DNA of 34,572 bases, from contig PBSL01000069.1 of NCBI GenBank assembly GCA_002726205.1, positions 1-34,572 on the forward strand. Direction: 5' to 3'. Source of the stretch: Planctomycetaceae bacterium. GTDB taxonomy: Bacteria; Planctomycetota; Planctomycetia; Planctomycetales; Planctomycetaceae. The number at the start of each line of letters is the position of its first letter. Positions within the stretch are counted from its first letter, which is position 1. Under the pieces are notes generated by a model. It was given only the letters and a program-made list of their open reading frames with translations. It searched no databases and was not told where the DNA came from. Positions 3,546 through 19,650 of the stretch are shown one piece after another. A program made the position numbers and the translations under genes.

Positions 3546-4550
3546 CTAGACCTCCGAACCACCGGTGGCTCCCTCGGCAGGTCCCTTGTAGAACTTCTTC
3601 CCCAGCCGGGGCACGAAGGCCGTCCAGCGGGACTGCTGATTGGGATCACTGTTGATCACGCTCATCGTCTCGTTGAGCCGGGCGTCGAGATTGTCCAGGA
3701 AGTGCAGGGCCACGGCTTCAACTGTCATCGGCGGACGGGGACTCCCGGCGTCGAGTGATCCGTGATGACTGACGATCAGGTGCTTCAGCCGCAACAACAG
3801 TTCCTCGTCAAATCCTCGACCCGTGCGACTGTAGAACTCGGCGATTTTCGTCTCGAGAACCTCGAGAACCAGCACGATGTGGCCAAGCAACTGGCCTTCA
3901 TCCGTGTAGGCCATCGTGCCCTCGACCGAGATCTCCCGGACCTTGCCCAGATCATGCAGGAAGATCCCGGCCATCAGGAGATCACGGTCCAGAAACTCGT
4001 AAAGACCGGTCAACCGGTCGGCCGCTTCGAGCATTGTCGAGACGTGTTCGAGCAACCCACCGCGGAAGGCGTGGTGGATCTTGATCCCGGCCACGGCCGT
4101 CGCAAACGAGCCGACCAGGGCCTCGTCATCGAGAAAACAGGACATCAATTCGCGGAGATCGGGGTTGGCAAGTCCTCGCAGCAACTCGTCGACACGAGCG
4201 AGTTGTCTCTGGTTCGCCGCGCTGCGGTCCTCCTCGAAGTCGACCATCTCAACCGACGTCGCCGACACCTTCTCGATTCGCGTCAGAATCATCTGCAGTG
4301 CCCCCTGGTAAAGCTGCACCTTGCCCAGGGCATGAACGAAATCACCGGTCTCGAACGTCGTGGCCGAGTCTTCCGACACGTTCCACATCAGCCCGTGGAT
4401 AATCCCGGTGCGATCCTTCAGGTGGGCAAGCAGGTACAAATCTCCGTTGCGATTGGCGCGGAGCTGCTTGTCCGAAAGCAGAAAGATCTCGTCGACCGAC
4501 TGGCCGTCACGGAGAAATTCGACGAATTGGCGTGACATGTTGCAACGCAT
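3546..4550 (-). CDS. YhaM-like 3'-5' exoribonuclease (OB fold + HD domain)
   Basis: The 334-residue product has the two-domain layout of YhaM-family exoribonucleases, metal-dependent enzymes that trim RNA, and in some species DNA, from the 3' end. An OB-fold nucleic-acid-binding domain spans about residues 20-100. An HD phosphohydrolase domain spans about 155-300, with H169 (LLEH), H199-D200 (LHDLGK), H262-H263 (SHHG) and DNLD at 286-289 as likely metal ligands. The ATG at 4548-4550 is used here; a second ATG four codons downstream (MSRQF) is equally possible. The stop abuts the GTG of rnr, so the pair encodes two 3'-5' exoribonucleases from one transcript. The leader contains a -10-like CTAGAAT and a strong hairpin. 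Confidence 0.88.
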
Positions 4551-4561
4551 CGAGGCGGGTT

Positions 4562-4582
4562 GGAAGCACCGTCGGTGCCTCC
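4562..4582 (-). promoter_or_regulatory. Stem-loop in the leader of the YhaM-like gene
   Basis: A 9-base inverted repeat with a 3-base loop: GGAGGCACC, GAC, GGTGCTTCC on the minus strand, with one G-U wobble in RNA and the core GCACCG/CGGTGC perfect. It begins about 11 bases upstream of the start codon and lies downstream of the inferred -10 box at 4596-4601, so it should be in the 5' leader. It ties up a GGAGG, but that sequence is 27 bases from the ATG and is probably not the ribosome-binding site. There is no T-run, so it is not an intrinsic terminator. A role in autoregulation by RNA decay is only a guess. Confidence 0.5.
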
Positions 4583-4595
4583 GGGGACGGCGTTG

Positions 4596-4622
4596 ATTCT
4601 AGGCCGTCACCAATCACAACAA
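4596..4622 (-). promoter_or_regulatory. Candidate promoter of the yhaM-like/rnr/gcvT transcript
   Basis: On the minus strand a TAGAAT (4596-4601) sits 45 bases upstream of the ATG. A weak -35-like TTGTTG (4617-4622) lies 15 bases further up, slightly short of ideal spacing. The -10 is within GGCCTAGAAT, the same ten bases found upstream of the DUF1573 gene. The region is divergent from the proS promoter candidate. Confidence 0.45.
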
Positions 4623-4662
4623 CAGGCCGCCGCCGTCCGTGTCCCCTCCCGCCCGTCTCTGC

Positions 4663-4668
4663 TAGAAT
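4663..4668 (+). promoter_or_regulatory. Candidate -10 box of proS
   Basis: CTAGAAT occurs at 4662-4668, 50 bases upstream of the GTG start of proS. It matches the other three intergenic copies in this window. No clear -35 hexamer is visible at 16-18 bases upstream, so this is a weaker promoter call. Confidence 0.4.
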
Positions 4669-4718
4669 GCCGTCTTCAACAGCCGGACCCGGCGGTCCGA
4701 GGATGCGGGAGACCCGAT

Positions 4719-6467
4719 GTGCGTTGGAGCCAGTCGTTCATTCCGACGATGAAGGAGATCCCGGCCGACGCCGAGATCCCCAGCCACCAGTTGATGTTGA
4801 GAGCCGGACTGATCCGCCAGGTGATGGCCGGTGCCTACACTTACCTCCCACTGGGTTGGCGAGCGATTCGCAAGGTCGAGGCAATCGTTCGCTCCGAGAT
4901 GGAGCGGGCCGGTGCAATCGAGTTGTTCATGCCGGCCTTGTGTCCGGCCGAACTCTGGGAACAGACCGGCAGGATCGACGACTACGGCAACGCCCTGGTC
5001 AACTTCCCCCTGGTCCGCGGCGACCGCCAGATCCACGTTGTTCTGGGACCGACGCACGAGGAGGTTGTCACCGACCTGATGGCACGGCAGATCAAGAGCT
5101 ACAAGCAACTGCCGATCACGGTGTTTCAGATCCAGACGAAGTTCCGTAACGAGGAACGACCCCGTTTCGGTGTTCTCCGCACCAGCGAATTCCAGATGAA
5201 GGACGCCTACAGCTTCGGCACCGATCTCGAACAACTCAACGTGGCCTACGACCAGATGTTTGCCGCCTACTGCCGGATCTTCGCCCGTTGCGGCCTCGAA
5301 TACCTGACGGTCGAAGCCGAAAGCGGGCCAATCGGAGGTGACGCGTCACACGAGTTCATGGTACCCGCCGACAACGGCGAAGACGAAATCGTCCACTGCC
5401 ACTCGTGCGGCTATGCGGCCAACACCGAGCGAGCCGAAATCGGCCGGCCGGTTCCGGCAATCGCAACGCCTGAGACGATGGCCGAGTTGTCCACCAGGCA
5501 GACACCCGGGACCACCAGCATCGAACAGGTCAGCCAGATGCTTGCATGCGACCCGTCACGGATCATCAAGACGCTGATCTACTCGGTCGACGACAGCACC
5601 GTGGCGGTCCTGCTGCGAGGTGATCACGAAGCCAACCAGTCCAAGATCCGCCGGGCCCTTAACGGCGACACGATCGAACTCGCCGACCCCGCGACAATCG
5701 AACAGGTCAGCGGTGCCCCGGTCGGATTTGCCGGCCCGGTCGGACTCGGGTGCCCGATCCTCGCCGATCACGACATCGTGACAATCGTCGATGCCATCAG
5801 CGGGGCCAACCAGGTGGATGCCCACTTCACCGGGGTCAACATCGGACGCGATTTCACACTGGAAACCTCGCATGACCTGAGAATGGCCATCGGCGACGAC
5901 CCGTGCCCCCGTTGTGACGGAACGCTGCAACTGGCAAGAGGAATCGAGGTAGGGCACGTCTTCAAGCTCGGCACGAAATACTCCACAGCACTCTCGGCCG
6001 AGTACCTCGACGAAAAAGAAAAAAAACACCCGATGGTCATGGGCTGCTACGGGATCGGCATCAACCGAATTGTTGCCGGCATGGCCGAAACCTCGCATGA
6101 CGAGAACGGGCTGATCTGGCCATTGGCGATTGCCCCGTTCGAAGTACTCGTGATCCCGCTCAACATCAACGATGACCAGGTGATGGCAACGGCCGACCGG
6201 ATCTATGACGATCTGCGGTCGGAGGGGCTGGACGTGTTGATGGACGACCGCAAGGCACGACCGGGATTCAAGTTCAAGGACGGCGACCTGATCGGCATTC
6301 CGCTCCGCGTGGTCATCGGGGGCAAGGGGTTGGCCGATGGCGTGGTCGAACTGAAGTGGCGAACCGACGAGGACTCGCAACGGGTCCCGATCGACGAGGC
6401 GATCGCTTCGATCCGTCAACAGGTCCGCGACCGTCAGGCTGCCGAAGCGGAAACGGTTCCCGAGTAA
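4719..6467 (+). CDS. proS: Prolyl-tRNA synthetase, bacterial type with editing insertion
   Basis: The 582-residue product is close to the 572 of E. coli ProRS, which charges tRNA-Pro and hydrolyses misacylated Ala-tRNA-Pro. Class II motif 2 is visible as [18 protein letters not shown], and motif 3 as [14 protein letters not shown] YbaK-like editing (INS) domain lies between them at about residues 225-385, and an anticodon-binding domain follows. Paired cysteines (CHSCG and CPRC) flank the insertion. I chose the GTG at 4719 because the family's start ([12 protein letters not shown]) follows immediately and GGGAGA lies 6 bases upstream. An open frame runs back to an ATG at 4560, but its extra 53 residues are non-homologous and would span the divergent promoter region. 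Confidence 0.95.
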
Positions 6468-6530
6468 TCAACCCAACCGTCAAGCTCGTCATAACCGTCT
6501 GGCAGGCCTTATCTTACGCACTCAGATTCT

Positions 6531-6558
6531 TTGACCGGGTTGCCGACAGGTCTAGAAT
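6531..6558 (+). promoter_or_regulatory. Promoter of the aldehyde-dehydrogenase-like gene
   Basis: TTGACC (6531-6536), 16 bases, then TAGAAT (6553-6558), followed 42 bases later by the ATG at 6601. This is a good match to a sigma-70-type promoter and lies in the 133-base gap after proS. The rest of that gap shows no terminator. Confidence 0.6.
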
Positions 6559-6600
6559 TCAGCAGGACGTCTCCAGAGACTGCTGACTGAGAGGCCGCCG

Positions 6601-9474: not shown

Positions 9475-11064
9475 ATGTCCGCAACCGGAATTCGTCGCGC
9501 GCTGCGACTCGGTCTCCTGCTGGTGAGTCTGGTGGCCGCGCGGCTGCCTGCCGCCAATCGTCCGAACATCGTGTTCATTTTTACCGACGACCACGCCGCC
9601 CATGCGCTTTCCTGCTACGGGTCGAAGATCAACAAAACGCCCCACCTGGACCGATTGGCCCGGGAAGGCACGCTCTTCCAGAACTGCTTCTGCACCAATT
9701 CGATCTGTGGCCCCAGTCGGGCGGTGATTCTGACCGGCAAGCACAGCCATCTCAACGGTGTCATCAACAACCGCGTCCGGTTCAATGGTGCTCAACAGAC
9801 GTTCCCGAAGTTGCTGCAAAAGGCCGGCTACCAGACCGCGATGGTCGGCAAGTGGCACTTGAAGAGCCTGCCGACGGGATTCGACCATTACGAGGTACTG
9901 ATCGGCCAGGGACCCTACTACAACCCTCCGATGATCGCCAACGGAAAGCGCGTCAAGCATATCGGCTACACGACCGAGATCATTACCGACATCGCGATGA
10001 AATTTCTCACCACCCGCGATGCCGACAAGCCGTTTCTGCTGATGTTCCAACACAAGGCTCCGCACCGGAACTGGCAGCCCGGCCCGAAGTACCTCACGAT
10101 GTTCGACGACGTCACGATCCCCGAACCGGACACTCTCTTCGACGACTACCGCGGCCGCGGCACAGCCGCGCGAACCCAGGACATGACCATCAAGAAGACG
10201 TTGACCCCCAACGACCTCAAGCTCGTCCCTCCCCGCAACCTGACTCCGTCGCAACGGAAGGCCTGGGATGCCGCCTACGCTCCCAAGAACGCCGCATTCC
10301 GCAATGCCAATCTCAAAGGCAAGGCCCTGGTCCGCTGGAAGTACCAGAGGTACATCAAGGACTACCTCCGTTGTATCGCATCGGTCGATGACAACGTCGG
10401 CCGGGTGCTCGACTACCTCGACAAGACGGGCCTGGCCAAGAACACGGTCGTGATCTACTCATCCGACCAGGGATTTTACCTCGGCGACCATGGCTGGTTC
10501 GACAAGCGGGTCATGTACGAGGAAAGCTATCGCATGCCGCTGCTGGTCCGCTGGCCCGGCCACACCCGCGCCGGCAGCGTCAACACCGATCTGGTCTCGA
10601 ATATTGATTTTGCACAGACCTTCCTGGACCTGGCCGGGGTTGCCGCGACTGGCGACATGCAGGGTCACAGCCTCGTGCCGCTGTTCAAGGGCAAGACGCC
10701 AACAGACTGGCGCAAGGCATTGTATTACCACTACTACGAGTTCCCCGGCCCTCACAGTGTCCGTCGACACTTTGGTGTCCGGGATGCCCGATACAAGTTG
10801 ATCCACTTCTACAACGTCGATGAATGGGAACTCTACGACCTGAAACGTGATCCTCGGGAGATGAACAGTGTCTACGGAGATCCGCAATACGACACGATCA
10901 CCTCGCGACTGAGGACCGAACTCGATCGACTGCAGAAACACCATCGCGTGCCCGACGACCGTGGGTCGGTTTCCAAGGAGGGCAAACGGCGGGATTCCGG
11001 AAAATCACCCAAGCGAAAAAAACGGAAGGCTCGTAAGAAGCGTACGACGACGGCCGGGAGATAG
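9475..11064 (+). CDS. Secreted sulfatase (formylglycine type)
   Basis: The 529-residue product starts with a signal peptide (about 1-27, cleavage near LPAA). [12 protein letters not shown] at 29-40 carries the metal-binding Asp pair (D38, D39). The sulfatase signature CGPSR at 78-82, with C78 as the residue converted to formylglycine, is followed by the LTGKH segment. A later [16 protein letters not shown] is the usual second metal/substrate site. Such enzymes hydrolyse sulfate esters of polysaccharides in the periplasm or outside the cell and need a formylglycine-generating enzyme, not seen here. The last 35 residues are extremely Lys/Arg rich, which is odd for an exported enzyme. The ATG has AGGGG five bases upstream. 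The next gene starts 7 bases after the stop. Confidence 0.93.
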
Positions 11065-11071
11065 CGTCAAC

Positions 11072-12208
11072 ATGCTGACATTCGTCCTGGCCTGTGTTGT
11101 TCCACCGTTCTTGTTGGCGGTGACGACAACCGCTCTTGTCCGCCGGTTCGCCCCTGGCTGGGGCCTGCTCGATCGGCCCGGCCCGCGGAAGGTTCACGAA
11201 GTGGTCACCCCCTTGGGGGGTGGCGTTGCCGTCTGGCTCTCGGTGGTGATTCCTCTCGGGCTGGTTTCCATCACCGCCTGTGGCTGCCTGCCGGGACTGA
11301 CACTGGATCGTTTCCTGCCGGCCGAGGTGTCGGCATCACTGGATTTCGTCCAGATCGGCAGCCGGCTCGGCCTGCTCTGGTGGATCCTGGGAGGAGCGAC
11401 CCTGCTGGCGTTGGTTGGGTTGATCGACGACTTCCGCAACCTGCCCTGGCTACCACGGCTGGCAATACAATTGCTGGTGGCGGTGGGGCTGGTCCTGGCC
11501 GGTGTGCGTGGCACGGTCTTCCTGCCGTGGCCGTGGATCGGATTCGTGGCAACCGTGCTGTGGATCCTGGTCCTGGTAAACGCCTTCAACTTTCTCGACA
11601 ACATGGACGGCCTCTCTCCGGGGATCGCCCTGATCGCCGCCTCGCTGTTCGCCGTGGTCCTGCTGACAGGCACAGCGCATCCCCACTGGCTGGTTGCCGG
11701 TGTGCTGCTGGTCCTGGCCGGATCTCTGGCCGGATTCCTCTGCCACAACTGGCCCCCGGCAAAGATTTTCCTCGGTGACGCGGGCAGCTACTTCATCGGG
11801 CTGCTGCTGGCCGCGTTGACCGTCGTCGGAACGTTTTACGAGGGCGGGACCGGAACCGACGGACGTCATGTGATTCTCGCCCCGCTGTTCATCCTGGCCA
11901 TTCCGCTGTACGACTTCACCAGCGTCATGCTGATCCGTCTCGGCCGTGGCCACAGCCCGTTCCGTCCCGACAAGAACCACTTCTCGCACCGATTGGTCGA
12001 ACTGGGGCTGAGCCGGAGAAATACGGTGCTGACGATTCACCTGGCCACGCTACTGACGGGACTGGGCGGTGTGTTGTTGTACCGGGTCACCGACTGGACG
12101 GCAGCCCTCCTGATCCTGGTCCTGATCTCCTGCGTTCTCGGCATCATCGCGATTCTCGAAACGGTCGGCCGCCGTGCCCAGAACGACGACGTGGTGACGG
12201 ATGACTGA
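11072..12208 (+). CDS. Polyprenyl-phosphate sugar-1-phosphate transferase (WecA/TagO/MraY superfamily)
   Basis: The 378-residue product is a polytopic membrane protein with about ten hydrophobic helices. It carries the superfamily motifs in order: VHEVVTPLGGG at 41-51, the DD pair at 119-120 (GLIDDFRN), NAFNFLDNMDGL at 170-181, FLGDAGSYFIG at 233-243, and PDKNHFSHRL at 299-308. These fit the GlcNAc-1-phosphate type more than MraY. It would load the first sugar phosphate onto undecaprenyl phosphate for O-antigen or another surface glycan at the inner membrane. The ATG at 11072 follows the sulfatase stop by 7 bases and begins a hydrophobic helix. An open frame extends to 10961, but those 37 residues are hydrophilic and lie inside the sulfatase gene. 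Its end overlaps the next gene by 8 bases. Confidence 0.9.
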   Translation: MLTFVLACVVPPFLLAVTTTALVRRFAPGWGLLDRPGPRKVHEVVTPLGGGVAVWLSVVIPLGLVSITACGCLPGLTLDRFLPAEVSASLDFVQIGSRLGLLWWILGGATLLALVGLIDDFRNLPWLPRLAIQLLVAVGLVLAGVRGTVFLPWPWIGFVATVLWILVLVNAFNFLDNMDGLSPGIALIAASLFAVVLLTGTAHPHWLVAGVLLVLAGSLAGFLCHNWPPAKIFLGDAGSYFIGLLLAALTVVGTFYEGGTGTDGRHVILAPLFILAIPLYDFTSVMLIRLGRGHSPFRPDKNHFSHRLVELGLSRRNTVLTIHLATLLTGLGGVLLYRVTDWTAALLILVLISCVLGIIAILETVGRRAQNDDVVTDD

Positions 12209-14510
12209 GCCAGCCACCGCCGCTGCGGGCAACCAGGCAACACCGGCAGCGGCACACCCCGCCTGGCTCGGGCTCGCCACGTCGCTGCTGGCCGCTCGTT
12301 GGCTGGTTCCCACCGAGTCGGCCGCCGCCGGTGCCACTCTCTGGCTGGTCGCGCTGTGGCTGGCCCTGGCCACCGCATGGAGCCTGGCACGATTGAAGTT
12401 CGATCGGGTGGGACCACCAAGACTGGACCGATTCGACCTGGCGATCCTGATGCTGGCACTTCCCCAGATCGTCTCGGCGGTCCTGCTGGTCGCAAGCTCC
12501 GACGGCAACACCCGCGCGGCCAGCAACATCGCCTGGGAGTGGACTGGCCTGGTGGTCACCTTCCTGTTCTTACGCCGACTGGTTTCCTCGCCCGCACACC
12601 ACAATGCGTTGATGCGTGTCACCGTCGGCCTGGCAATTGCGACTGGCGTTCTGGGAATCTGGCAGCATCACGTGGGCTACGGCATGGCGGTTGCCGACCA
12701 TGATGCGCAGCTGGCCAGGCTCGAACAGGCCACCCACGCCGGGGACCTCTCCACTCAGCGTCGATTGCAGTCAGAAATGGCCGGTCAGGGCATTCCACTC
12801 GACGGGCCGGCACGACAACTGTGGGAACGTCGACTGCGAGACAGCCGTGAACCGATTGGCCTGTTCGCCCTCGCCAATTCCCTGGGCGGATTCCTGGCCC
12901 CGCTGCTGCTGGTCGGACTGGCGATGTGGCTGTCGGCTCGAAAAACTGATCGGCCGGGAAAGGTCGGCTCGGCCGCAATCCTGCTGTCGTTGTTCTACTG
13001 CCTGCTGCTGACAAAAAGCCGAACGGCGTGGGTCGGCCTGGCCGTCGGCGGCATCCTCCTGGCGATCGCTCACCGCGGTTGGCTGAATCGCCGACGGCTC
13101 GTTCTGGCCGCTGCGGCGTTGGGTTCTGGATGCCTGTTCCTGTTGGCCGTCTTCCTGACACGCGGGATCGACGTGGAGGTCCTGACCGAGGCTCCCAAGT
13201 CACTGGCTTACCGGTGGGAATACTGGCGGGGTACCCTGGACGTGATTGCCGAGCGGCCGTGGCAAGGCACCGGTCCGGGAAATTTCCGGCAACATTACCT
13301 GGCCCACAAGCCCAGCGGGTCAAGTGAGGAAATCGCCGACCCGCACAACTTCGTTCTCGAGGCTACCGCCACCGCCGGCCTGCCGGGACTGCTCGGCCTG
13401 GCCGGCTGCCTGGGACTTCTGGCCTGGTCGCGACGCCGAGGACCGCAGGCAACATCGCCGACAGGATCATCGGGAAGAAAAGATCCCGGGGAACGCGACG
13501 GGTTCCCCAGCGTGATGATCGGGGGGGGCGGTGGATTTTTCCTGGCGATGACACCCGGTCTGCTGCTGGGCTCGGGACTGGACCTGAGGCTGGTCCTTCT
13601 CTTGATCGCCTGGGTCGTCGCGATTCGCCTGTTGCCATCCGGTTCCGTCGAACCTCCCTCATGGCGAAGCAGCAAGCTGGCCGCACTCCTGGTGCTGTTG
13701 GTCCACCTGCTTGGTGCCGGTGGATTCAGCCGACCGGCACTGATGCAGTTGGGACTGTTGCTGGTCATCGGCCTGCGACCTGCTGACGACGATTCCTGCC
13801 AACCGCTGCCGGCCACCGCCCCATCAAAGTGTGGTTGGCTGACCATCGCCGGCGGTGGACTGCTGCTGGCCGCCCTGTTGATCGGAACGGTGTTGCCGAT
13901 AATGACCCGCACCACGGCCGAGCGAATGGCGACAGCGGCATCGTTGCTGCGAGGCCAACCTGCTGCGGCGACGCGACACCTTCGCGATGCCGTGCGAGCC
14001 GATCAACGCGATCCGGTTCCGGCTCGACAACTGGCCCAGTTGATGTTCGACACCTGGTCGGGTTCGTCCGTCGCCGACGACGAACTCTTCGACAACGTGA
14101 TCCAGGTGGCGTTGAAGGCGCAGCGCCGAGATCCTTACAGCTGGATTCCTCCTCACGACCTGGGCCGATTCTATCGGCAACGTCATCTGCTCACAGGTGA
14201 CAGCAATGATGTCGCGGCCGCGATTCACTGGTCCACGCGGGCCGTGCAACGCTACCCGACCAACCCGAGACTGAGAGCCTCGCTGGCCGAGACTCTCCAC
14301 GAGGCCGGCCATCACGATGCCGCTGCCAGCGAATCCCAACGGGCGATGGAACTACAGGACATCCTTCGACAGCGAGGACACACTGACAAACTGCTTCCGG
14401 CCAATCGAATCAAGAAGCTGAGGCGGCTCGTCTCCGGAAAGCCGGATCGGATTCCCGACACCACGCCGGGATCCGTTTCAGCGGGAACCAGAAGACCTGA
14501 CCGCAATTGA
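12201..14510 (+). CDS. O-antigen ligase/polymerase family protein with C-terminal TPR domain
   Basis: The 769-residue product has many hydrophobic segments in about residues 20-500. The Wzy_C-type signature lies at about 345-395: RWEYWRGTLDVIAERP, then GTGPGNFRQHYL, then DPHNFVLEATATAGLPG. About residues 580-740 are soluble and helical, with TPR-like repeats (MATAASLLRGQPAAATRHLRD and AIHWSTRAVQRYPTNPRLR-type units). The protein would join or polymerise lipid-linked glycans on the periplasmic side. Ligase (WaaL) and polymerase (Wzy) cannot be separated by sequence alone. Its ATG overlaps the stop of the WecA-like gene (ATGACTGA), indicating coupled translation. A DUF1573 gene follows behind its own promoter. 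Confidence 0.85.
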   Translation: MTEPATAAAGNQATPAAAHPAWLGLATSLLAARWLVPTESAAAGATLWLVALWLALATAWSLARLKFDRVGPPRLDRFDLAILMLALPQIVSAVLLVASSDGNTRAASNIAWEWTGLVVTFLFLRRLVSSPAHHNALMRVTVGLAIATGVLGIWQHHVGYGMAVADHDAQLARLEQATHAGDLSTQRRLQSEMAGQGIPLDGPARQLWERRLRDSREPIGLFALANSLGGFLAPLLLVGLAMWLSARKTDRPGKVGSAAILLSLFYCLLLTKSRTAWVGLAVGGILLAIAHRGWLNRRRLVLAAAALGSGCLFLLAVFLTRGIDVEVLTEAPKSLAYRWEYWRGTLDVIAERPWQGTGPGNFRQHYLAHKPSGSSEEIADPHNFVLEATATAGLPGLLGLAGCLGLLAWSRRRGPQATSPTGSSGRKDPGERDGFPSVMIGGGGGFFLAMTPGLLLGSGLDLRLVLLLIAWVVAIRLLPSGSVEPPSWRSSKLAALLVLLVHLLGAGGFSRPALMQLGLLLVIGLRPADDDSCQPLPATAPSKCGWLTIAGGGLLLAALLIGTVLPIMTRTTAERMATAASLLRGQPAAATRHLRDAVRADQRDPVPARQLAQLMFDTWSGSSVADDELFDNVIQVALKAQRRDPYSWIPPHDLGRFYRQRHLLTGDSNDVAAAIHWSTRAVQRYPTNPRLRASLAETLHEAGHHDAAASESQRAMELQDILRQRGHTDKLLPANRIKKLRRLVSGKPDRIPDTTPGSVSAGTRRPDRN

Positions 14511-14615: not shown

Positions 14616-15866
14616 ATGCGTATCGCCGTTGTCATCCTGTCGATCGTCCTGTTCGTCGGGCTCCTGTTCTTTGGTGCCAAGACCTATCGCGAGACGGTGA
14701 CCGCCACCGACAACCTGCGACCCGACGAGCAGGCTTCGGAGCTGCCGCTGCCTGCAAAGAGCGGACCACACCCCAAGGTGGTGATCCTCGGTGGTCGAGA
14801 GTTCGACTTCGGGGTCATGGAACAGGGACAGGAGTCCAGCCACGCCTTCCTGATCCGCAACGACGGCCAGGCGACCTTGCGACTGCTGGCCAACTACAAG
14901 GGTGACAACACCTGCGAATGCACCGTCGGCAAACTCACCCGCGACACGGTCCCGCCGGGAGAAACCGTCGAGGTCCTTGTCCAATGGGGCGTAAAAAAAC
15001 CGGTGATCGACTTTGCTCATTCGGCAACGATCCGTACCAACGATCCCGAGGCGATGAAGATTCCGTTTGTCGTCAAAGGGCTGATTGGACGACGGGCCGT
15101 GATCGCTCCAAGTTCCACCAGGGCGGTCGGACAGTTGGCCAATGACGAGACGGTCAAGGTCGACCTGACCCTGCACACCGAAACCATCGACACGTTCAAG
15201 TTGCTCAAGGTCGAAAACCCCGGCGGCGCGGTCACCTTCAAGACTCGGCCACTCTCGGCCGGGGAACTCGAACAACTTGCCGACAACAGCTCGAACACGA
15301 CCACCAAGAAAGAGAAGTCGGGCCAACTCAAGGTCATCAGCAAAGTCGGTGGCAAGCGACCGACTCCGAGGGCCGGTTACGCCATCACCGCAACCGTCAC
15401 CGGCGCCAAACTGCAACCGGGCCCGTTCCAGGAGACGCTGACCTTCCACACCGATCTCGAAAAGGACCACTCGGTCAGTTTTCATCTCACCGGTAGTCGA
15501 TCGGGCTACATCGAGTTCATGAAGGCACAGGGAGCGAAATGGGACAGCCAGAAGCTCCTGCTGCGACTGGGCACCTTTCAGGCAACCAAGGGCAAGTCGG
15601 TGCGGGTCCCGATGTTGTTGAAGGAAGTGACACCGGAGACGAAGTTGCAGGTCATCGGGACGAAACCCGATTTCATGAAAGTCAAGTTCGAGAGAGATCC
15701 CGAGTTTCCGGCCAAGACGAAACATCGCTACTGGATGACGTTGACCGTGCCTCCAGGACAGCCACCGGTGACGCTGACCGCACGTCGTCACGGGACAATT
15801 TCCCTGGAGACCAAGGGAGGCGAGAAACGATCGCTGCGATTTTTCGTCGGCTTTGTTTCTCATTGA
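14616..15866 (+). CDS. Membrane-anchored DUF1573 protein
   Basis: The 416-residue product has one N-terminal hydrophobic helix (about 3-22) and no obvious cleavage site, so it is probably anchored in the membrane and faces the periplasm. A DUF1573 domain lies at about 50-160. It shows the typical FDFGVMEQGQ start, a HAFLIRNDGQATLRL strand, a Cys pair in NTCECTVGKL, and a PPGETVEVLVQW strand. DUF1573 is an immunoglobulin-like (ASH/MSP-type) fold of unknown function that is common in Planctomycetota and Bacteroidota. The remaining 250 residues look like one or two more beta domains. The cytochrome fusion gene follows 47 bases later, suggesting a periplasmic partner; this is inference. The start has GAGG upstream of the ATG. 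Confidence 0.85.
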   Translation: MRIAVVILSIVLFVGLLFFGAKTYRETVTATDNLRPDEQASELPLPAKSGPHPKVVILGGREFDFGVMEQGQESSHAFLIRNDGQATLRLLANYKGDNTCECTVGKLTRDTVPPGETVEVLVQWGVKKPVIDFAHSATIRTNDPEAMKIPFVVKGLIGRRAVIAPSSTRAVGQLANDETVKVDLTLHTETIDTFKLLKVENPGGAVTFKTRPLSAGELEQLADNSSNTTTKKEKSGQLKVISKVGGKRPTPRAGYAITATVTGAKLQPGPFQETLTFHTDLEKDHSVSFHLTGSRSGYIEFMKAQGAKWDSQKLLLRLGTFQATKGKSVRVPMLLKEVTPETKLQVIGTKPDFMKVKFERDPEFPAKTKHRYWMTLTVPPGQPPVTLTARRHGTISLETKGGEKRSLRFFVGFVSH

Positions 15867-15913: not shown

Positions 15914-17437
15914 ATGCCACGTTGGGTCGCTCCGATCCTGGTCTTGCTGGCAGTTGCCGCCCTGGCGGCCGGTTGGTTTTGGCCGGTCCAGGTCCCTCCT
16001 GGTCCAGGCCGTCGGGACCCTGATGCCCTGCTCGACGGTTGGCCGGCACAGGATGTCACGCTGATCATCTCCGGAGAGCAACACGGCTACATGGAACCGT
16101 GCGGTTGCTCGGAGTCGCAATCAGGCGGTTTCTCGCGACGTGCTGATCTCTTTCGACAGTTGAAAGCAAGAGGGTTTTCACCAATCGGTCTCGACCTGGG
16201 TGCCCTGGTCAAGCGTCACCGCGATCAGAGCCGACTGAAATTTCAGACGATGCTGGCCGCCCTGGGAGATCTGGACTATGCAGCCGTGGCCGTGGGTCCG
16301 GAAGATCTCGCACTGGGCCCGGACTTTCTCTTGTCCCAGGGACGTGCCGACGCGGCTGATGAGAATGATGGCAGTGATCTGGAATCATCAGTCCCCCCGC
16401 TGCTCGCCGCCAACGTGCGACTTTACGACAGCCCGGATCTCCCCGGCGCCCCGATCGCATCGCGACTCGTGCCCTGCGGCAGCGAAACGATCGGCGTCAC
16501 CGCGATCCTCGGTCCCGGACTCACCGCCCCGCTCAGGGCAGCCGGTGTGCTCGCTGACGTGACCATCAGTCCTCCGGAAGAGGTACTGCCGGCGATCCTC
16601 GCGGATCTCGTTGACCGTGGTGCCACCCTGCTTGTCCTGCTGTCCCACGCGTCGATCGACACCTCTGTCTCGCTGGCACGCCAATTTCCCCAGTTGCACC
16701 TGGTCGTCAGTGCCCATGGTCCCGAGGACCCCCTCGCCGACAATCCTCGTCAGGTGGGGTCCACGACCGTGGTGACCGTGGGACACAAGGGAAAGTACGC
16801 GGGCGTCGTGGGACTGACCCGCAACAACGACTTGCCCCGCCTGCGATTCGAACTGGTAAATCTCGACAGCCGGCGTTTCCACGACACGCCGTCGATGGCC
16901 GAACACATGCGGACCTACCAGAAAACTCTCGAGCAAACCGACCTGGCGGCGCAAATGCTGCCGATCACCGTTGTTGACGGTCGAGAATTCGTCGGAGCGG
17001 AGCGTTGCGGCGAGTGTCACACAAAGGCGATGGCCCAATGGAAACAGACCGGCCATGCACGTGCCTATGAAAGTCTCGCCAGGGGACGGGCCGGTCACGA
17101 ACACGAATGGATTCCTCGGACCTTTGATCCCGAGTGCCTCAGTTGTCACGTCACCGGCTGGCACCCACAGGACGTGCTGCCGTACAAGAGCGGCTACGTC
17201 GACCGCGGCGGTTCCGCCCACCTGCTGGGAAATCAGTGCGAGAACTGCCATGGCGCCGGAAGCCGACACGTGGCGCTGGTGGAAGCCGACCGGATTGAAG
17301 AGTCGCTGGCCGACGTCCGCGTCACGCTCGAGAAGGCCCGTCGGACCACGTGCATCGGTTGTCATGATCTCGACAACAGCCCAAAATTCGACTTCGACTC
17401 CTACTGGCCCCAGGTTGCCCACCCCGGACGAGACTGA
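15914..17437 (+). CDS. UshA-like metallophosphatase-fold domain fused to four-haem c554-type cytochrome
   Basis: The 507-residue product begins with a hydrophobic anchor or signal (about 5-24). Residues 48-330 resemble the UshA/5'-nucleotidase metallophosphatase fold. However, the first metal motif, normally D-x-H, reads GEQHG (54-58) and is followed by EPCGC (61-65) and GGFSRR. The second half has four c-type haem motifs: CGECH (365-369), CLSCH (408-412), CENCH (442-446) and CIGCH (480-484). This part fits the cytochrome c554 group. The protein is likely periplasmic and should need the cytochrome c maturation system. Cys-containing relatives of UshA with a similar P-C-G-C segment are known and some contain selenocysteine, as I recall. 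The reaction is unknown. The DUF971 gene follows after 3 bases. Confidence 0.85.
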   Translation: MPRWVAPILVLLAVAALAAGWFWPVQVPPGPGRRDPDALLDGWPAQDVTLIISGEQHGYMEPCGCSESQSGGFSRRADLFRQLKARGFSPIGLDLGALVKRHRDQSRLKFQTMLAALGDLDYAAVAVGPEDLALGPDFLLSQGRADAADENDGSDLESSVPPLLAANVRLYDSPDLPGAPIASRLVPCGSETIGVTAILGPGLTAPLRAAGVLADVTISPPEEVLPAILADLVDRGATLLVLLSHASIDTSVSLARQFPQLHLVVSAHGPEDPLADNPRQVGSTTVVTVGHKGKYAGVVGLTRNNDLPRLRFELVNLDSRRFHDTPSMAEHMRTYQKTLEQTDLAAQMLPITVVDGREFVGAERCGECHTKAMAQWKQTGHARAYESLARGRAGHEHEWIPRTFDPECLSCHVTGWHPQDVLPYKSGYVDRGGSAHLLGNQCENCHGAGSRHVALVEADRIEESLADVRVTLEKARRTTCIGCHDLDNSPKFDFDSYWPQVAHPGRD

Positions 17438-18387: not shown

Positions 18388-18495
18388 AAAGCTGACAGCC
18401 AGTGGCGACGATTCAGTTTCCGGCGCGGGACGATGCCGGTTGCGGAACGTGTGAAGGATCCCAACCGCGCCGCGGGACAAAGGAGTGAAAACCCA

Positions 18496-19650
<1,155 letters not shown>

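Follow-up and report, generated by a model that had tools for sequence, protein, structure and literature searches.

Which reaction could be carried out by a protein that joins a phosphatase fold to a four-haem cytochrome? The question is raised by a gene in the genome of Planctomycetaceae bacterium (assembly GCA_002726205.1, contig PBSL01000069.1, positions 1–34,572; this whole analyzed stretch of 34,572 nucleotides is referred to as the window). The gene (15914–17437, forward strand, with an ATG at 15914 and a stop at 17437) encodes an UshA-like/tetrahaem cytochrome fusion protein of 507 amino acids. The profile of its branch matches nearly all sampled genomes of one bacterial class, yet among the matches listed, the literature search returned neither an assigned function nor a functional study of the fusion protein.

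Fold and metal site of the phosphatase domain

The whole fusion protein was modelled with AlphaFold2 from an alignment of the window protein and 80 homologues, which gave a pLDDT of 90.2 and a pTM of 0.88. In this model, a hydrophobic helix at the N-terminus (residues 5–19; 15926–15970, forward strand) may act as a signal peptide or a membrane anchor, and because this helix is combined with c-type haem motifs, the protein is predicted to be exported. Residues from about 45 to 347 (16046–16954, forward strand) form a metallophosphatase domain of the 5'-nucleotidase type. Structural alignment of the model with VIA-align matched this domain to the Thermus 5'-nucleotidase 2z1a with a Z score of 29.8 over 282 residues (rmsd 2.8), followed by CD73 (9p1m, Z 29.6), UshA (Z 28.4), and SoxB (2wdc, Z 28.2). 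The metallophosphatase fold is therefore common to the fusion protein, UshA, CD73, and 2z1a (Z 28–30). In contrast to these enzymes, the fusion protein lacks the two-metal site, and the cytochrome takes the place of the nucleotide-binding C-terminal domain. That domain (PF02872), which we take to be the usual C-terminal domain of 5'-nucleotidases, gave no match in the fusion protein at an E-value of 0.01; elsewhere it was matched in 2 of 40 relatives and nowhere in the own genome, in a search whose controls were positive in 10 of 14 cases.

The two-metal set of 5'-nucleotidases consists of eight residues, namely D-x-H, a bridging D, an N-H pair, H, and H-x-H. The corresponding positions of the fusion protein were read off the alignment to 2z1a, and conservation was counted over 81 aligned rows comprising the window protein and all 80 fetched homologue loci. 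Residues 54–65 of the window protein read GEQHGYMEPCGC, in which the first metallophosphatase motif is degenerate and consists of E55-Q56-H57-G58 (16076–16087, forward strand). Position 55 is Glu in 39 of the 81 rows and the canonical Asp in 5. The canonical His at position 57, the second metal ligand, is present in the window protein (E-x-H-G) and occurs in only 28 of the 81 rows, and therefore the first motif has decayed rather than having been swapped for a new fixed one. The bridging Asp is replaced by A97 in the window protein (16202–16204, forward strand) and is kept in 10 rows; P129-E130 (16298–16303, forward strand) occupies the place of the Asn-His pair, of which N129 and H130 are each found in 1/81 rows. 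His is present in 40/81 rows at position 245 and in 5/81 at position 268, the window protein included in both cases, and the last His, at position 270, is found in 0/81 rows and is Pro in the window protein. D55, H57, and D97 do not occur together in any of the 81 rows. Counted per row, none of the eight canonical residues is kept in 20 rows, one in 40, two in 13, and three in 8, so that the maximum in any row is three; the window protein, with H57, H245, and H268, is among those with three. These counts indicate that there is no conserved two-metal centre in the family, and because the metal residues are lost across the 81 rows, a phosphatase or nucleotidase activity was rejected as the main function. 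The preliminary description had pointed out GEQHG in place of D-x-H-G and a metal site altered accordingly; both observations hold, the alteration extends over the whole family, and the first needs refinement only in that His57 is still there. Given the three kept His residues and E55, the window protein itself may still bind some metal.

The cysteine pair and its selenocysteine counterpart

Close behind the decayed motif lies P62-C63-G64-C65 (16097–16108, forward strand), which is invariant in 81/81 rows. Only ten of the 301 columns of the phosphatase domain are invariant, and C63 and C65 are among them; K292 (16787–16789, forward strand), kept in 80 of the 81 rows, may be a further functional residue. 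PCGC was found in all 80 fetched loci, each time inside an open reading frame with at least four CxxCH motifs, and a motif scan of further sets of loci with the N-terminal domain found it in 30/30. In the window, C63-G64-C65 is encoded by TGC GGT TGC, and the residue at codon 65 is thus Cys, not selenocysteine (Sec). On the other hand, an in-frame TGA stands at the position of C65 in relatives from other families of the same phylum, namely in 10/10 regions that had been picked because each held a TGA match. Eight of these regions have PCGU and two have TCGU, and in all ten, 414–455 open codons follow the TGA and a predicted stem begins 17–18 bases after it. In nine of the ten, the TGA-form gene is followed by a second copy with CGC, which gives a tandem Sec/Cys pair. 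SelB scored above the cut-off in 16/16 searched genomes having a TGA-bearing match. Comparison of these genes establishes, at the level of their codons, that the C65 position is exchanged between Cys and Sec among relatives. Among 40 relatives, 17 likewise have SelB above the cut-off; they include the own genome, where the gene (G000:C76:38902-40776) scores 354 bits while the fusion gene uses Cys; given SelB, the window organism may possess other selenoproteins.

PMC2398784, PMC9312934, and PMC13188914 each include an UshA-like CxU family in their lists, and the review entries for it give no function. The table in PMC2398784 assigns the CxU motif to the UshA-like family, which its accompanying text names as an exception among the families with conserved Cys-based redox motifs. 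A CxC arrangement can also serve as a structural or metal-binding motif, and a metal such as copper or zinc might be bound by the CGC pair in replacement of the lost centre, forming a haem-fed reaction site that involves no dithiol/disulfide cycle. The haem domain weakly matches MccA sulfite reductase, an enzyme that pairs haem with Cys-bound copper, and the invariant C63 and C65 together with the H57, H245, and H268 of the window protein could supply ligands. However, these candidate extra ligands are not conserved (His57 in 28/81, His245 in 40/81, and His268 in 5/81 rows), and Sec, which takes the place of C65 in relatives, is uncommon as a plain metal ligand, which makes such a centre unlikely.

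The tetrahaem domain

Residues 346–507 (16949–17434, forward strand) form a tetrahaem domain like that of cytochrome c554. The domain scores 52.9 bits with Pfam PF13435, well above the cut-off of 20.8, and its profile finds c554 of Nitrosomonas europaea (1bvb) with an E-value of 6.5e-22. Modelled alone, these residues reached a pLDDT of 92.9 and matched c554 (1ft6) with a Z score of 12.6 over 144 residues, compared with 5.9 for the next entry. The four haem-binding motifs are C365GECH369 (17006–17020), C408LSCH412 (17135–17149), C442ENCH446 (17237–17251), and C480IGCH484 (17351–17365), all on the forward strand and each kept in 81/81 rows, and therefore a chance occurrence of these motifs is ruled out. 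The preliminary description had placed four CxxCH motifs in the second half of the protein and had taken the protein for a fusion of a phosphatase fold with an electron-transfer module; the conservation of the motifs confirms the former, and the structural match to 2z1a, together with the profile and fold matches to c554, the latter.

Only seven His residues are invariant in the 81-row alignment: the four of the CxxCH motifs and H381 (17054–17056), H452 (17267–17269), and H503 (17420–17422), all on the forward strand, which are candidate distal ligands. H381 is aligned with His27 of c554, a haem ligand in that protein, whereas H452 and H503, whose role as ligands is more tentatively assigned, align only loosely with its later ligands. 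In c554, three haems are bis-His coordinated and haem 2 is five-coordinate. Three extra His residues would fit one open haem in the fusion protein as well, and by analogy, the haem without an invariant distal His is probably haem 2. The two proteins are thus alike in their four haem motifs, fold, and His27 equivalent; in contrast to c554, the haem unit here is one domain of a larger protein.

The haem domain is better conserved than the phosphatase domain (mean identity to the window protein of 48% and 35%, respectively, in the 81-row alignment), as would be expected if the protein were a pure electron carrier or a gas-handling c554-like cytochrome with an open haem, to which the phosphatase domain merely contributed a docking scaffold and C63–C65 a structural disulfide. 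Such a role is quite improbable: a structural disulfide leaves the Sec exchange in relatives unexplained, and the two cysteines are among the very few positions of the phosphatase domain that never vary.

Family, gene context and proposed reaction

The best NCBIfam match of the window protein is NF041198 (UshA_like_PCGU), with an E-value of 1.4e-62 and 212 bits, below the cut-off of 275. All 81 aligned proteins match this profile at an E-value of 1e-10 or better, and in full-length matches its 519 positions are covered from start to end, both domains included. The likeness to this UshA-like (seleno)protein family lies in the two-domain layout and the PCG-C/U motif: the window protein has PCGC at 62–65 after the first strand, combined with the arrangement of an UshA-like domain and a C-terminal multihaem domain. 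In contrast to the TGA forms in the ten regions, which mostly occur as a tandem Sec/Cys pair, the window has the Cys form as a single copy beside a DUF1573 gene. The architecture is therefore already known from NF041198, although uncharacterised, and by its profile score, the window protein is placed in a Cys-containing branch below the cut-off. What is new here is that the profile of this branch matches nearly every sampled genome of the class and that a DUF1573 gene lies upstream in most loci. In the planctomycete class of the window, 198 genomes were sampled, and a profile built from the 81 rows matched 196 of them at an E-value of 1e-30, mostly with one match each; across the phylum, it matched 132 of 288 genomes; named loci with the fusion gene include anammox genera. 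In the survey of ushA-like and cpdB-like genes in PMC10454023, the row for Planctomycetota carries two minus signs, read as neither being found.

SoxB thiosulfohydrolase has the same fold (Z 28.2) and, to our knowledge, no haem domain. The SoxB profile TIGR04486 gave only 34 bits on the window protein, far under the cut-off of 550, and SoxB membership was rejected on this score; 6 of the 81 rows matched the profile at an E-value of 1e-10 or better. A search for SoxY gave a match in 0/40 genomes, with its control positive in 0/14 genomes. It is very improbable that the protein is a SoxB- or 5'-nucleotidase-like hydrolase with its ester cleavage retained, whose cytochrome would serve in redox regulation or take up electrons from sulfur products, since the fold and this weak profile match stand against a family in which no row keeps more than three of the eight metal-site residues, the normal C-terminal domain (PF02872) is absent from the fusion protein, and the SoxB score is so low.

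Immediately upstream of the fusion gene, separated from its ATG by 47 bases, ends a gene for a DUF1573 protein (14616–15866, forward strand; PF07610, E-value 7.2e-12) with a CECT motif and a hydrophobic N-terminus, which is a probable partner. It is this neighbour, and not the fusion protein itself, that matches the OS_HP2/DUF1573 (seleno)protein family NF041425, with 41 bits and thus under the cut-off of 100. Both PMC13188914 and PMC9312934 list DUF1573 also as a UGC selenoprotein. In a profile search of the 80 loci, 66 had a DUF1573 gene upstream of the fusion gene, at most 2.5 kb away and in the same orientation; 1 had it downstream, and none on the opposite strand. Another 11 loci gave no match in this upstream stretch of 2.5 kb; at one of them (L071) the gene lies slightly further up, and two (L135 and L141) have less than 1.6 kb of upstream sequence. 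The last 3 loci had no room for the upstream search. The CxC motif is present in 56 of the 57 DUF1573 rows that were aligned. The DUF1573 profile had no match in the ten TGA-form regions, and because the gene is missing both there and at some of the loci, DUF1573 is not obligatory.

Among the four TGA-form regions scanned for neighbours, the TGA-form gene lies just downstream of an ECF sigma factor/anti-sigma factor pair in three (L143, L148, and L149, not L147), which hints at stress control of the TGA-form genes. At L147, an open reading frame with a match to the middle domain of hydrazine synthase alpha (3767–6574, E-value 1.5e-20) adjoins the TGA-form gene. Further upstream in the window (9475–14510) lie genes for a sulfatase, a WecA-type GT4 transferase, and O-antigen ligase/TPR proteins. 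The last two recur upstream of the fusion gene in many other loci: clustering covered 75 neighbourhoods, that of the window among them, after 6 of the 80 loci had been left out because they lacked a picked focal open reading frame, and it grouped genes with the O-antigen ligase of the window in 37 and with its GT4 transferase in 27. In this clustering, the DUF1573 gene of the window was masked by a longer antisense open reading frame, which the DUF1573 profile search avoids. A polysaccharide role deduced from these neighbours was set aside, as the anammox loci L132, L136, and L140 have DUF1573 without O-antigen ligase or GT4 genes. On the other side of the fusion gene, RecA (18433–19650) has a repetitive E-A-T tail (19547–19644) encoded by an 18-base tandem repeat with 5.4 copies and 98% matches.

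Because the metal residues are mostly lost, a haem domain is fused, and the Cys pair is strictly conserved with Sec in relatives, the fusion protein is probably a redox enzyme and not a phosphatase. The best explanation, which has a reasonable though not a strong claim to be correct, is that a metallophosphatase fold without the two-metal site serves as the scaffold of a haem-wired redox protein, exported and acting through thiols (in relatives, selenols). In the proposed mechanism, C63 and C65 would sit in the former active-site pocket or close to it, where they may alternate between the dithiol and the disulfide state or bind a redox metal. Electrons could then pass via the haem chain to or from a periplasmic carrier, with the open haem, probably haem 2, acting as the electron entry point or as a second reaction site. 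The upstream DUF1573 protein, with its own CxC motif, would be a likely partner or substrate. The preliminary description had interpreted the protein along similar lines, and its fusion of a fold with an electron-transfer module, altered metal site, and important Cys pair all stand; the last of these is upheld by the invariance of the pair (81/81) and the Cys/Sec exchange, so that the objection that it might not be kept in homologues falls away. Its further suggestion of a periplasmic sulfur or nitrogen enzyme was not supported by any of the results; the SoxB match is weak.

More tentatively, and as a proposal still short of even confidence, the fusion protein may belong to a new class of oxidoreductases, wired to haems and working with thiols or selenols, that evolved from a dead metallophosphatase scaffold, forms part of the core of the planctomycete class, and is served by a dedicated CxC-bearing DUF1573 partner. 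If so, the label "UshA-like" would hide a redox enzyme, and the Cys/Sec family would acquire a known layout, a possible partner, and a testable mechanism based on two cysteines.
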